Assembly: GCA_002898375.1 (NCBI GenBank)
Contig: BEIN01000001.1
Coordinates: 62,001 to 126,000, forward strand
Direction: 5' to 3'
Origin: a bacterium HR37
GTDB taxonomy: Bacteria; Desulfobacterota_D; UBA1144; Nemesobacterales; CSP1-2
Length of the DNA stretch: 64,000 bases
Shown: piece after piece, positions 9,930 to 13,864 of the stretch
Layout of the letters: each line of letters opens with the position of its first letter
How positions within the stretch are numbered: the first letter of the stretch is position 1
Notes under the pieces: model-generated
Seen by the model: the letters and a program-made list of their open reading frames with translations, nothing else
What the model was told of the DNA's origin: nothing
The model's database searches: none
Translations under genes and position numbers: made by a program

Positions 9930-10163
9930 ATGAGTGAGTCGTGTATAAGAAAGACGCTGGCTACCTTTCCTTACGGAAATATTCAGGAGTGTAGTTGCGG
10001 GGGATACTATGTTACCTTTGGCTATGTAACCCTTAGATTAAGTTATAAGGAACTTAAGTCCTTCACCGAGGCTCTGGAGAGTGTTGTGAATCTGGTAGAG
10101 TCTGACTCTCAGGCTACATCAAGGGGTTTTAGGTATAAGGGTAACTCTTTCATAGAATCCTAG
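9930..10163 (+). CDS. Small CxCG-containing protein of unknown function
   Basis: A 77-residue protein with no recognised family. The ATG at 9930 follows AAGGAGA (9919-9925); an in-frame start at 9885 lacks a ribosome site. Its middle reads IQECSCGGYYVTFGYVTLRL, a CxCG turn between beta strands, followed by an amphipathic helix (YKELKSFTEALESVVNLVE). The lone CxC pair could bind metal with another Cys (near the N-terminus, SCIRK). It stands just upstream of the apbE promoter and Fur-like site, but nothing shows a shared role. Confidence 0.7.
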   Translation: MSESCIRKTLATFPYGNIQECSCGGYYVTFGYVTLRLSYKELKSFTEALESVVNLVESDSQATSRGFRYKGNSFIES

Positions 10164-10194: not shown

Positions 10195-10223
10195 TTGACA
10201 TTTCCAGGTGGGGAGGGTATTTT
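10195..10223 (+). promoter_or_regulatory. apbE promoter
   Basis: A perfect -35 TTGACA (10195-10200), 17 bp spacer and -10 TATTTT (10218-10223). The same -35 and -10 hexamers occur before the porin gene at 11309-11336. The expected start of transcription, about 10230, lies at the edge of the palindrome at 10233-10257. Confidence 0.65.
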
Positions 10224-10232
10224 TTAACCCAT

Positions 10233-10257
10233 AAAAATGAAATTGAATTTCATTTTT
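10233..10257. promoter_or_regulatory. Fur-like operator: perfect 25 bp palindrome before apbE
   Basis: AAAAATGAAATT and its exact complement AATTTCATTTTT flank a central G at 10245. The core TGAAATT-G-AATTTCA is a 7-1-7 inverted repeat, the geometry of Fur-family boxes. It begins about 10 bp downstream of the -10 box and ends 10 bp before the apbE ATG, so bound repressor would block initiation. Regulator identity (Fur, Zur, PerR or other) is inferred. Confidence 0.65.
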
Positions 10258-10267
10258 AGAACTAAGA

Positions 10268-11275
10268 ATGAGTTTGATAACACTATTTCTTAGCTTGTTG
10301 TTAACCCAATTGGATCTGGTTGTTGTTGAAAGGGCGTTCTTCGTCATGGGAACCATTCTCGAGTTTGAGCTCTATTGTGAGAACAAAAAGAGTTGTAACG
10401 ATGCGGTATTTGAAGCTTACTCTGAAGTAAAAAGATTAGATGATATGCTAAGTAACTACAAACCTGATAGTGACCTATCTAAGCTAAACTCAGTTGCAGG
10501 AAAAAGGGCAGTAGTTGTCCCTGAAGAGTTCTTTGATATTACCAGAAGATCTATCTATTTTTCCAGGATAACGAATGGGGCTTTTGATATAACTGTGGGA
10601 GAGTTGGTACGGTTGTGGAAGGAAAGTGAAAGTAAAAACGTTATTCCCGATGAAAACACTGTAAAAAAGATCGTCTCTGAGTGTGTGGGTTTCGATAAGA
10701 TAATGCTATATCCTAGGGAACGGAAGGTTTTTTTTAACTCTTCCTGTCTTTCCATAGACTTTGGCGGAATAGGTAAGGGGTATGCAGTTGACAGGGTGGT
10801 GGGGATTCTAAGGGAAAGAGGGATAAGAAGGGGAATAGTGAATTTTGGTGGAAATATTTATGCTATGGGTTCACCTGTTGGGAAGAGTGCGTGGAGAATA
10901 GGAATTAGAGATCCCTGGAATAAAGACAAAGTCATCAGTTATATCGAGATTAGCGATATGGCAGTATCCACTTCCGGAGATTATGAAAGGTATTTTGAGA
11001 TAAAGGGAAGGCGATTTTCTCATATAATTGATCCAAGAAGCGGTTTTCCAGTAAGTGGAGTTCATTCTGTAACTGTGCTTGCTAAAAGTGCTACCGAAGT
11101 GGATGCACTTTCTACTGCTATATCGGTTATGGGAATTGAAAAGGGAGCCGAGTTTGTAGATAGGCTCTCTAGCGTGGGTGTTATGATGGTTGCTGGAGAT
11201 TCAAAAAGTGCTCTTGTTTACAGGAACGATGCGTTTAAGAAGTTTGAGCTAAACCACGCTCTTAACAATCCTTAG
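10268..11275 (+). CDS. apbE: FAD:protein FMN transferase
   Basis: Transfers FMN from FAD to a Ser/Thr of exported flavoproteins, outside the inner membrane. The 335-residue product opens with a hydrophobic export segment (LITLFLSLLLTQLDLVVV). It then has FDITVGELVRLWK, the core FGGIGKGYAVDRVV, NFGGNIYAMG and the metal-site segment ATEVDALSTAISVMG. Its likely client is the FMN-binding protein at 12846, which has the target motif. The gene is behind its own TTGACA promoter and a palindromic operator. Confidence 0.95.
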   Translation: MSLITLFLSLLLTQLDLVVVERAFFVMGTILEFELYCENKKSCNDAVFEAYSEVKRLDDMLSNYKPDSDLSKLNSVAGKRAVVVPEEFFDITRRSIYFSRITNGAFDITVGELVRLWKESESKNVIPDENTVKKIVSECVGFDKIMLYPRERKVFFNSSCLSIDFGGIGKGYAVDRVVGILRERGIRRGIVNFGGNIYAMGSPVGKSAWRIGIRDPWNKDKVISYIEISDMAVSTSGDYERYFEIKGRRFSHIIDPRSGFPVSGVHSVTVLAKSATEVDALSTAISVMGIEKGAEFVDRLSSVGVMMVAGDSKSALVYRNDAFKKFELNHALNNP

Positions 11276-11308
11276 GTATTTGGTTTTTTATCTTTTTTGC
11301 GTGTGATA

Positions 11309-11336
11309 TTGACAAGTGGGGTGTTTTTGGTATTTT
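11309..11336 (+). promoter_or_regulatory. Porin promoter
   Basis: -35 TTGACA (11309-11314), 16 bp spacer, -10 TATTTT (11331-11336). The hexamers are identical to those of the apbE promoter and are likewise followed at once by a Fur-like repeat. Confidence 0.6.
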
Positions 11337-11341
11337 GATTA

Positions 11342-11356
11342 TGAAAATGATTATCA
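11342..11356. promoter_or_regulatory. Fur-like operator before the porin gene
   Basis: TGAAAAT-G-ATTATCA is a 7-1-7 inverted repeat with one mismatch and is close to the classic Fur core (TGATAAT-N-ATTATCA). It lies between the -10 box and the ribosome site of the porin gene, the same arrangement as upstream of apbE. Confidence 0.65.
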
Positions 11357-11379
11357 ATTTTAATAAAGGAGGGTAAGCT

Positions 11380-12780
11380 ATGAAGAACGCCTTTAGCAGT
11401 ATGTGGAGGATTGGTGGTATTTTTCTTTTGATTCTTTTTCTATTTCCATCCCTAGATGCGTTTTCTGAGGATAAACCTGAGGAACGCATAAGGGAGTTGG
11501 AAAAAAGGATTCAGCTACTTACGGAGGAAATTCAGAAAATGAAGTCAGAAAAACCTACTGAGAAGCAGGATAAGATTGAGGAGATAGAGAGAAGGTTGGA
11601 GATACTTGCAGAGGAGATCCAGGATATTAAGTCTGCAGCTGTAGTTGAGGAGCCTACCTACGAAAGAGCTTTTGGATTAGGACCTGCTGCCTCTAAGGTA
11701 TACAGAATAAACAGAGGGCTTTCCATTGCAGGGTATGGCGAATTGGCAGTTAGTCAGTTCAGGGAGGATGAAGATAATATAATCGATGCTCAAAGGCTTA
11801 TTCTCTACGCCGGTTATAAGTTTAGTGACAGAATTATATTTAACTCCGAAATAGAGTTTGAACATGGAACAACGGAAGAAAACCTCGATGAAAGAGAAGG
11901 GTCTGTATCAGTTGAGTTTGCAAGTCTTGATTTTCTCATAAATGATTACTTTAACCTCCGCGGAGGATTGCTGCTCGTTCCCTTTGGGATAATTAACGAA
12001 GTCCATGAGCCAACCACATTTTTTGGTGTTCTAAGACCTGATGTTGAAAGGTTTGTGATCCCAACAACCTGGAGGGAAAGTGGTGCAGGTATCTTTGGAG
12101 AGGTAAGTGATATCATTCCTGGAACACTTAGTTACAGAGCCTATGTTATTAACAGCCTTGATTCAAGGGGATTTAGTGCTTCTGGTAACAGGGATGCAAG
12201 ACCAAGTGGAAACAGGGCAAGGTTTAATGATTTTGCCTTTGTATCCAGACTTGAGTATGACCCTTTCCCTGGAATTAAGTTTGGTGGTTCGTGGTTTATT
12301 GGGCAGACCGGTCAGAATGAAAGGGTAAATGGTAGGAAGATAGATGGGCTCTTTCAAATGTATGAAGCTGATATGCAGCTTCTGTGGAAAGGACTAGAGG
12401 CAAGGGCACTTTTTGTATATAGCTTTTTGGATGATGCAGACCTTATAAATATTAATAACGGGCTTGAAGGGAATGAATCTGTTGGGGATGAGCAATTTGG
12501 ATGGTATGTTGAGGCTGGCTATAATCTGTTTTCTCTGGTTGACTGGGGGGAATATCTACAGTATTTTGCTCCTTTTATAAGGTTTGAGAAGTTTGATACA
12601 CAAAAGAGTGTTCCTGCTGGTTTTACCAGAAATCCTGCTAATGATAGGCAGACCCTAACCGTTGGATTTAGCTACAAACCTATTCCTCAAGTGGTTATAA
12701 AGGCTGACTATCAAAGGAGAGATAACGAAGCCGATATTAGCAGTGATCAGTTTAACCTTGGGCTTGGATTTGTGTTCTAA
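11380..12780 (+). CDS. Outer-membrane porin with N-terminal coiled coil
   Basis: 466 residues: a signal peptide (GIFLLILFLFPSLDAFS, cut near residue 30), and a coiled coil at about 30-90 of Glu/Lys-rich heptads (ERIRELEKRIQLLTEEIQ). A beta-barrel region follows with alternating hydrophobic strands and a terminal Phe (LGLGFVF), the BAM recognition signature. It resembles OprO/P-like or iron-responsive porins, but the solute is not determinable. A strong GGAGG precedes the ATG. With the Fur-like box at 11342, iron-regulated uptake through this pore is a reasonable inference. Confidence 0.87.
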   Translation: MKNAFSSMWRIGGIFLLILFLFPSLDAFSEDKPEERIRELEKRIQLLTEEIQKMKSEKPTEKQDKIEEIERRLEILAEEIQDIKSAAVVEEPTYERAFGLGPAASKVYRINRGLSIAGYGELAVSQFREDEDNIIDAQRLILYAGYKFSDRIIFNSEIEFEHGTTEENLDEREGSVSVEFASLDFLINDYFNLRGGLLLVPFGIINEVHEPTTFFGVLRPDVERFVIPTTWRESGAGIFGEVSDIIPGTLSYRAYVINSLDSRGFSASGNRDARPSGNRARFNDFAFVSRLEYDPFPGIKFGGSWFIGQTGQNERVNGRKIDGLFQMYEADMQLLWKGLEARALFVYSFLDDADLININNGLEGNESVGDEQFGWYVEAGYNLFSLVDWGEYLQYFAPFIRFEKFDTQKSVPAGFTRNPANDRQTLTVGFSYKPIPQVVIKADYQRRDNEADISSDQFNLGLGFVF

Positions 12781-12796
12781 CTCAGGTTAAATATTC

Positions 12797-12830
12797 CCGG
12801 AGTGTGTGGGAGCACACTCCGGTATCTTTT
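12797..12830 (+). terminator. Hairpin terminator/attenuator after the porin gene
   Basis: A perfect 10 bp stem, CCGGAGTGTG paired with CACACTCCGG (12797-12806 and 12813-12822), with a 6-nt loop, followed by TATCTTTT. It lies between the porin stop and the FMN-binding gene, so it would reduce readthrough rather than divide unrelated genes. Confidence 0.7.
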
Positions 12831-12845
12831 CCCGGGTTTCTATCT

Positions 12846-13394
12846 ATGATTAGAGTAAGTTTTGCAGTTATATGCTTTTTATTCCTTTCTCTGGCCTCTA
12901 CGTCTTTTGCCAAGGTTTATTTGACAAAGGATGAGGCTTTAGAACTGGCTTTTCCAGATGCAGATACGGTTGATAAAAAGGTCTTTTTTCTTACAGATGA
13001 TCAGGTTAAGGAGATTGAGTCCTTATCCAGAACAAAGGTTGACTCAAAGATATTTGTTTCTTTTATTGGCAAGAAAGGGGAAAAAGTTTTGGGTTATGCT
13101 GTTATAGATACTCATACCGTGAGAACAATGAGTGAAACGGTTATGGTTGTTATAAACCAGGATGGAACTGTTAGGCAGGTAGAGATACTTGCCTTTTTTG
13201 AGCCCCCTGATTATATGCCAGGGGAAAAATGGCTTGAGCTTTTTCAAGATAAGAAACTCTCTACATCTCTAAGACTTGGTGGAGATATTCCCAGGATTAC
13301 AGGGGCAACAATAACCTCAAATACCATAGTAAAAGTGGTAAGGCGCATACTTGCAACATTCCAGGTTGTTACCAAGGGGGTAATTATAAATTGA
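12846..13394 (+). CDS. Exported FMN-binding domain protein with flavinylation motif
   Basis: 182 residues from the ATG at 12846. A GTG at 12804 is in frame but lies inside the upstream hairpin and adds residues before the signal peptide. The N-terminus (VSFAVICFLFLSLASTSFA) is a signal peptide. The C-terminal FMN-binding domain has DIPRITGATITSNT at about 148-160; its T-G-A-T-x-T matches the ApbE target in NqrC/RnfG, so T157 is the probable covalent FMN site. The gene overlaps the next by 4 bp, implying coupled translation. Role inferred: a one-flavin electron carrier in the periplasm. Confidence 0.88.
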   Translation: MIRVSFAVICFLFLSLASTSFAKVYLTKDEALELAFPDADTVDKKVFFLTDDQVKEIESLSRTKVDSKIFVSFIGKKGEKVLGYAVIDTHTVRTMSETVMVVINQDGTVRQVEILAFFEPPDYMPGEKWLELFQDKKLSTSLRLGGDIPRITGATITSNTIVKVVRRILATFQVVTKGVIIN

Positions 13395-13864
13395 GGTTCT
13401 TTATATCAAACGATATAAGAACAAATAGTTTACTGAAGCTGATTATAGTTTTTACCCTGGTTTTCTTTCTTTTTCTTTGGGTTACCAATTTGTTGTTATA
13501 CCTCAAGATAGGTTTAAGCTATAATTCAGTTGTCGAGTATTATCGAGGAAATGAAGAGGCGTTTAGGCCCCCTAAAAGCTATATAGGATTGCTTGAAGAG
13601 GCCCATTTTCACTTCTTCTCTATGGCTGTTATACTTGTGACATTAAATCACCTTATTTTATTTGCTCGGATAAAAAACTCCTGGAAGTTAATGCTTATTC
13701 TTTCTTCATTTGTATCTGCCTTTGGTGATATTATCAGTGGGTGGTTTATCAGGTATCTAAGTCCTTTATTTGCTTATTTAAAGATTATCTCTGTTGTTGT
13801 TCTTCAGGTTTCTCTGGCCTTATTGCTTTTGTTGATTACTAGGTTTCTTTATGAAAAGAAATAG
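13391..13864 (+). CDS. Four-helix membrane protein with clustered histidines
   Basis: 157 residues starting at a TTG that overlaps the FMN-binding gene's stop. About four hydrophobic segments are visible (near 16-38, 75-92, 100-120 and 125-152). The segment EEAHFHFFSMAVILVTLNHL holds H72, H74 and H87 at the start and within a helix, where haem or metal ligation is possible. I do not recognise a named family. Translational coupling suggests it is the membrane partner of the flavoprotein, possibly passing electrons to it, but this is inference. Confidence 0.75.
   Translation: MRFFISNDIRTNSLLKLIIVFTLVFFLFLWVTNLLLYLKIGLSYNSVVEYYRGNEEAFRPPKSYIGLLEEAHFHFFSMAVILVTLNHLILFARIKNSWKLMLILSSFVSAFGDIISGWFIRYLSPLFAYLKIISVVVLQVSLALLLLLITRFLYEKK

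Follow-up and report, generated by a model that had tools for sequence, protein, structure and literature searches.

We describe an iron-linked gene module within a window of 64,000 nucleotides, positions 62001-126000 of contig 1 of the 2.42-Mb genome of bacterium HR37, a relative of the Dadabacteria. In it apbE, which encodes a flavin adenine dinucleotide (FAD):protein flavin mononucleotide (FMN) transferase, is followed by an operon of three genes, for an outer-membrane porin, an FMN_bind protein that is exported and a four-helix membrane protein whose family has no name. A preliminary description had proposed that these genes form an iron-responsive electron-transfer or ferric-reduction module of the cell envelope that feeds a pore. 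The computed features, in window coordinates, are as follows.

10195-10223, forward strand: apbE promoter read from the sequence, TTGACA (10195-10200) and TATTTT (10218-10223) with a 17-nucleotide spacer
10232-10258: Fur-type apbE operator, a perfect 27-bp palindrome (13-1-13), TAAAAATGAAATTGAATTTCATTTTTA, with the core TGAAATTGAATTTCA at 10238-10252
10268-11275, forward strand: apbE, FAD:protein FMN transferase, 335 residues (Pfam ApbE PF02424, E=4.6e-84; NCBIfam PRK10461)
11309-11336, forward strand: porin-operon promoter, TTGACA (11309-11314) and TATTTT (11331-11336) with a 16-nucleotide spacer
11342-11356: Fur-type porin-operon operator TGAAAATGATTATCA, a 7-1-7 repeat with one mismatched pair, kept in orthologous operons
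11380-12780, forward strand: outer-membrane porin, 466 residues, with signal peptide, N-terminal coiled coil (residues 33-87 or thereabouts) and 16-stranded barrel (AlphaFold2 (AF2), Foldseek)
12797-12822, forward strand: strong intercistronic hairpin, attenuator- or terminator-like, directly 3' of the porin stop codon (z = -3.4)
12846-13394, forward strand: exported FMN_bind (RnfG/NqrC-like) protein, 182 residues (Pfam PF04205, E=1.7e-8), with predicted flavinylation at Thr155 of ITGAT
13391-13864, forward strand: four-helix membrane protein of an unnamed family, 157 residues, putative b-type cytochrome and electron donor to the FMN protein
9930-10163, forward strand: associated DUF6686-like, Cys-containing small protein upstream of apbE, 77 residues

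The last two genes of the operon overlap by four bases (13391-13394). Pfam and AF2 bear out the gene identities first assigned from the sequence, namely ApbE, a coiled-coil porin, an exported FMN_bind protein carrying ITGATITS and a His-containing membrane protein, and the identical TTGACA and TATTTT hexamers that had been noted before apbE and the porin gene are indeed present. Each promoter had further been said to precede a 7-1-7 inverted repeat, that of apbE being a perfect palindrome of 25 bp; both repeats exist and the apbE palindrome is perfect, but its length is 27 bp. Each operator follows closely on its -10 hexamer and thus sits on or beside the point where transcription is expected to start, the position at which a repressor would act. 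A promoter scan returned 12 consensus promoters against 10.0 expected from shuffles, and in view of this lack of excess the identity of the hexamers is not used as evidence here.

The operator in the host genome and its regulator

The genome was searched for exact sites of the 15-bp box TGADAWTNAWTHTCA, with the reversed pattern as control. Nine sites were found and none for the control, where 0.55 would be expected genome-wide from a third-order Markov model built from the window. Five of the nine lie upstream of genes: apbE, the porin gene, those for a cytochrome c-FTR1 iron permease of 747 residues (L009/L152) and a multicopper oxidase of 331 residues (L011/L153) and, on contig 5, that for a 73-residue small protein, a paralogue of the small gene directly upstream of apbE. 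The operator thus stands before further iron genes of the same genome, as the preliminary description had anticipated.

The other four exact boxes fall within leaders of clustered regularly interspaced short palindromic repeats (CRISPR), ahead of the arrays (L008 1501-1515, L010 1501-1515, L012 371-385 and L150/L155, genome C6:33599-33613). The leader palindromes are Fur-box-like, TGATAATTATTTTCA occurring three times and TGAGAATAATTCTCA once; the repeat of the fourth array differs in sequence. These leaders are possibly touched by a Fur-family protein or another dimer, though the likeness may be a coincidence. Sites with one mismatch in the host genome (L014-L019) lie mostly inside or between unrelated genes, and because they number 16 against 9 for the reversed control, exact sites alone were counted. 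The sequence TGAAATTGATAATTGATTTCA stands with a TTGACA promoter ahead of a small gene of about 100 residues (L013 1155-1510, genome C1:132673), and a ferritin-like gene lies on the other side of the site, on the opposite strand.

Four Fur-family genes are present in the host (L001-L004). The best solved relatives of L001 are iron-sensing Fur proteins (E about 1e-29), L002 adjoins a CbiM/CbiQ-like transporter, as judged from the protein sequences, and the best solved match of both L003 and L004 is PerR (2fe3). The operator fits the published consensus of the delta-proteobacterial Fur box, WTGAAAATNATTTTCAW (Rodionov and colleagues, PMC545781), which makes Fur (L001) its likely, predicted ligand; a regulator of the metal-sensing type presumed at the outset is encoded in the genome. 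We regard control of the module by Fur as very highly probable.

Conservation of the module and its operator across phyla

The four-helix protein was found in 43 of the 101 genomes searched. Eighty named loci were taken from a species-genome collection, with taxa as given in their record titles; among these loci are some of Dadabacteria, Methylococcaceae (Methylococcales), Myxococcota, Binatia (Binatota), Acidobacteria, Entotheonella and Rokubacteria, and further of Calditrichia, Latescibacterota, Handelsmanbacteria, Planctomycetia, Verrucomicrobiales and Oligoflexia. Two of the metagenome-assembled genomes (MAGs) look misassigned: L110, entitled Klebsiella pneumoniae, is closely like L106, an environmental delta-proteobacterial MAG, and L097, entitled Methyloversatilis universalis, is like the Methylococcaceae loci. 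Upstream sequence of 2.8 kb or more is available for 61 loci; in 53 of these the genes for porin, FMN_bind and four-helix protein follow in this order on one strand, and in 39 apbE lies in the same locus, so that the proposed gene set does recur elsewhere. In some distant loci FMN_bind and ApbE are fused.

The operator is conserved along with the genes. Allowing at most one mismatch, a box is found upstream of the porin gene in all nine Dadabacteria of the window's family and a sister family, as against none of 92 control upstream regions; the figures for other phyla are 18 of 35 loci and none of 701 control regions (Fisher p = 9e-27, a value that overstates independence since loci within one phylum are related). 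The matches outside the Dadabacteria come from at least Methylococcaceae, Binatia, Myxococcales/Deltaproteobacteria, Blastocatellia and Oligoflexia, and several of the boxed genomes have a GC content of 57-71%, at which so AT-rich a box is conspicuous. The FTR1 promoter carries the box, with no or one mismatch, in 9 of 12 Dadabacterial relatives. A different palindrome, GGATATT-N-AATATCC, occurs at the porin promoter of L074-L076, L082, L083, L086, L135, L091 and L126.

Iron genes also neighbour the module. FTR1 adjoins it in the Dadabacterial families f6 and f8, FeoAB in L142, FeoB in L141, and Fur in the Myxococcota/Deltaproteobacteria (L119, L122, L124, L133). In L068, a very distant homologue, the order of genes is FMN_bind-ApbE fusion, four-helix protein, DtxR-type iron-dependent repressor and FeoB, and in L114 apbE is followed by a Bfd-like gene, just under the Pfam cut-off, and a ferritin-family gene. 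A MauG-like di-heme protein is encoded in or beside the module in methanotrophs (L100 5425-6750, L105, L112). In the host genome neither FeoB_C nor a P19 (PF10634) gene was found, which places the locus outside the P19/FtrABCD systems. The absence of FeoB_C, together with a single Plug-domain receptor, makes sense of an FTR1 route in this organism. FTR1 is found in almost every genome of the order, and for this reason its presence or absence is not used as evidence of co-occurrence.

The proteins of the module

The AF2 model of the porin, with a predicted local distance difference test (pLDDT) score of 84, has N-terminal helices at 33-87 followed by 16 strands, and Foldseek aligns it to the barrels of OmpU, OmpC and OmpF (E 1e-13 to 1e-11), that is, to a general-porin-like fold. 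Against Pfam the window porin gave weak porin matches, none above a family cut-off; only 2 of 29 members of the porin family match the phosphate-selective porin O/P family (PF07396; best E 0.002), to which we do not assign it. As a general-type outer-membrane porin it most likely admits iron complexes inward. The hairpin after its stop codon keeps its position, with a differing sequence, in most of the Dadabacterial relatives examined, and a hairpin is seen at the same place in L070-L072, L075, L076, L078, L080, L085 and L104. It likely sets the ratio of porin to FMN_bind expression, and its conservation is consistent with a porin expressed above the downstream genes.

The FMN_bind protein has a signal peptide evident in its sequence and matches the rnfG subfamily of NCBIfam below the cut-off. 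ApbE is encoded together with this exported substrate, a pairing kept in relatives, and the flavin-accepting Thr or Ser is present in all 76 aligned FMN_bind proteins; we infer that Thr155 is flavinylated. In most Dadabacteria the Asp of the flavinylation motif is replaced by Pro; elsewhere, exchange of this Asp for Ala had a minor effect (PMC12052999). The marine Dadabacteria (L087-L092, L094, L095, L126) keep ApbE and the module with a degenerate flavin motif (SGSTIS or SNSTIS), which makes the efficiency of flavinylation there uncertain.

The model of the four-helix protein (pLDDT 91) comprises four long helices and one short one. Seven residues are invariant, Y51, G53, E69, H72, H74, H87 and W118, and Glu69, His72, His74 and His87 all lie on one predicted helix, for which the positive-inside pattern would place His72 and His74 close to the periplasm and His87 close to the cytoplasm. 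No significant match was found in Pfam, NCBIfam or among PDB sequences and folds, nor any plasmid homologue, and 48 homologues gave no consistent Pfam match, which sets the family apart from the NapH, MsrQ, PepSY, DsbD, NQR/RNF and DUF4405 classes. The three invariant histidines are compatible with a b-type cytochrome, and we lean slightly towards a heme-b electron carrier.

The small Cys-containing, DUF6686-like proteins of 70-80 residues form a family that adjoins the porin operon, often with its own Fur box. Members were seen in the window (9930-10163), in L007 (1208-1429, minus strand) and in L050, L054-L058, L067 and L080.

Proposed mechanism and alternative explanations

The best explanation of the locus, and in our judgement a likely one, is a Fur-repressed, flavin-based assimilatory iron reductase. 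Its regulation and its linkage to iron are strongly supported; a role in iron assimilation is highly probable, and reduction by way of flavin is probable. On iron scarcity, Fur would leave both operators. The porin, produced in excess over the downstream gene products on account of the hairpin after its stop codon, would admit ferric complexes across the outer membrane, while the exported FMN_bind protein would receive its FMN, at Thr155, from ApbE. The four-helix protein, probably binding heme b and most likely as a dimer, with His72/His74 near the periplasm and His87 near the cytoplasm, would supply this FMN with electrons drawn from the quinol pool or from the cytosol, and the FMN would in turn reduce Fe(III) to Fe(II). 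Import of Fe(II) would fall here to the Fur-boxed cytochrome c-FTR1 permease, with the Fur-boxed multicopper oxidase as a possible ferroxidase, and in other phyla to FeoAB in place of FTR1. The ferric reduction of the preliminary description is thereby retained, as suggested by the protein families and their context; its notion that the module feeds a pore probably has the direction wrong, as the porin likely lets iron in.

Several observations weigh against this explanation. Adjacency to FTR1 is seen in one phylum only, and the loci concerned are not independent events; six marine genomes have the gene for the four-helix protein and no FTR1 match. The Dadabacterial families f6 and f8 are without a Fur box and have GGATATT-N-AATATCC instead, a replacement that would reflect a regulator swap or a changed specificity of Fur. 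The motif D-x-x-[ST]-G-A-[ST] is matched only in part, the [ST]GAT core being present and Pro standing in place of Asp. Finally, the three conserved histidines share one predicted helix, so that ligation of heme would need a dimer or other ligands.

The alternative that survives best, though we think it unlikely, takes the four-helix protein for a metal channel or permease instead of a cytochrome: Fe(II) would be bound by E69, H72 and H74 near the periplasmic face and by H87 near the cytosolic one and so be led inward, and the FMN protein would reduce iron at the mouth. An invariant set of Glu and His along one helix, the lack of any family, sequence or structure match to known cytochromes and the six marine genomes that keep the protein without detected FTR1 would all suit a channel. 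In many loci, however, the protein co-occurs with dedicated iron transporters (FTR1, FeoB), and the 13-residue spacing from H74 to H87 fits two stacked b hemes. Moreover, described flavinylation clusters mostly include a transmembrane electron carrier (PMC8238504, PMC11334425).

A Fur-controlled module acting on another metal, such as copper in the methanotrophs or manganese, is very improbable: the MauG-like di-heme protein of some methanotroph clusters (L100, L105, L112) might hint at it, but the recurrent partners are iron importers and genes of iron storage and regulation. The same partners tell against an envelope system for redox repair or peroxide stress, which would draw on quinol electrons in the manner of MsrPQ under a PerR-type paralogue. 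The host does have two PerR-like paralogues (best solved match PerR 2fe3), and pairs of FMN and membrane proteins act in protein repair elsewhere. Yet the box is of Fur type and common to FTR1 and the multicopper oxidase, in other phyla the module sits next to FeoAB, Fur and ferritin/Bfd with no repair enzyme recognised beside it, and the adjoining Fur of Myxococcota and relatives belongs to the same iron-Fur type as L001, all of which leaves this reading scarcely credible. No more credible is a respiratory role, in which a porin conduit would carry electrons out of the cell to ferric minerals, although porin, flavoprotein and membrane electron carrier do have the outline of such a conduit. 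A Fur repressor operator marks assimilation rather than respiration, the clusters were not seen to contain a multiheme cytochrome, methanotrophs and Myxococcota are among the hosts and the porin is modelled as a plain barrel of 16 strands.

Comparison with known systems

Flavinylation systems have been linked to iron assimilation before, the PepSY-like ones being reported as Fur-repressed in Shewanella and Caulobacter (PMC8238504). The PepSY- and MsrQ-like iron clusters share with the present module ApbE, a flavinylated extracytosolic domain, a membrane carrier and a link to iron import. They differ in that the module has no PepSY, MsrQ, NapH, DsbD or NQR/RNF partner domain, its carrier belonging to an unrelated four-helix family without a Pfam model, and in that its operon includes a porin, a word absent from that report (PMC8238504). 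Among small membrane proteins in a flavinylation or ferrosome context, DUF4405 and FezC bind heme b (PMC11334425); they resemble the four-helix protein in size, in conserved His and in association with ApbE or iron, and FezC is proposed to build its heme sites by homodimerisation (PMC11334425). DUF4405, however, has six transmembrane helices and four His, against four helices and three invariant His in the present family; none of the 48 members matches DUF4405, and FezC was compared by description only.

In E. coli porins have a share in the uptake of iron (PMC7315122). The Fur-regulated hypothetical psp porins and the feoAB-linked OprB-type porin of Geobacter/Desulfuromonas have WTGAAAATNATTTTCAW boxes upstream and a suggested role in iron transport (PMC545781). 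For these no flavoprotein or transmembrane partner is given in that report, and the likeness of the psp porins is one of description. The P19-FTR1 and FtrABCD systems likewise combine an FTR1-type permease with accessory redox proteins (PMC8238504, PMC11966278); some P19/FTR1 clusters contain an FMN-binding protein (PMC8238504), and the FTR1-type FtrC reportedly works with Fe(II) (PMC11966278). The host, by contrast, lacks P19, and its FTR1 is fused to cytochrome c, with the reductase set encoded elsewhere in the genome. In yeast, Fre1, Fet3 and Ftr1 unite a flavin (and heme) ferric reductase, a multicopper ferroxidase and an FTR1 permease in one iron-responsive regulon. The present genes would follow the same logic of reductase, ferroxidase and FTR1; this is analogy only, for the reductase proteins are unrelated, and the module adds an outer-membrane porin. 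A porin-FMN_bind-membrane protein iron module was not found described in the open-access literature, absence from which is not proof. The novelty lies in the pairing of a dedicated porin with an unnamed four-helix carrier family, and in how widely this pairing is distributed.

Conclusions

The locus is a real, conserved, iron-regulated system, most likely one in which flavinylation serves the reduction of iron, and it includes one new protein family. A wider proposition, on which our judgement is evenly poised, is that it represents an undescribed iron-assimilation system of ten or more phyla, composed of a dedicated porin, a periplasmic reductase with covalent flavin and four-helix transmembrane cytochromes of a new family with three invariant histidines. 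Usually repressed by Fur and coupled in modular fashion to FTR1 or FeoAB, this system would form a main siderophore-independent reductive route for iron in many uncultured bacteria with few TonB receptors.

Iron acquisition in bacteria without FeoB and with few TonB receptors is mostly unexplained. In the present module an unnamed family of membrane proteins is linked to Fur in many phyla, together with a porin and a protein with covalent flavin. This provides a candidate family of heme proteins, a role for a porin that has passed as hypothetical until now and, for methanotrophs, Myxococcota and marine Dadabacteria, a marker of reductive iron uptake. Furthermore, it suggests that bacteria can assemble the yeast-type logic of reductase, ferroxidase and FTR1 under a single Fur regulon.

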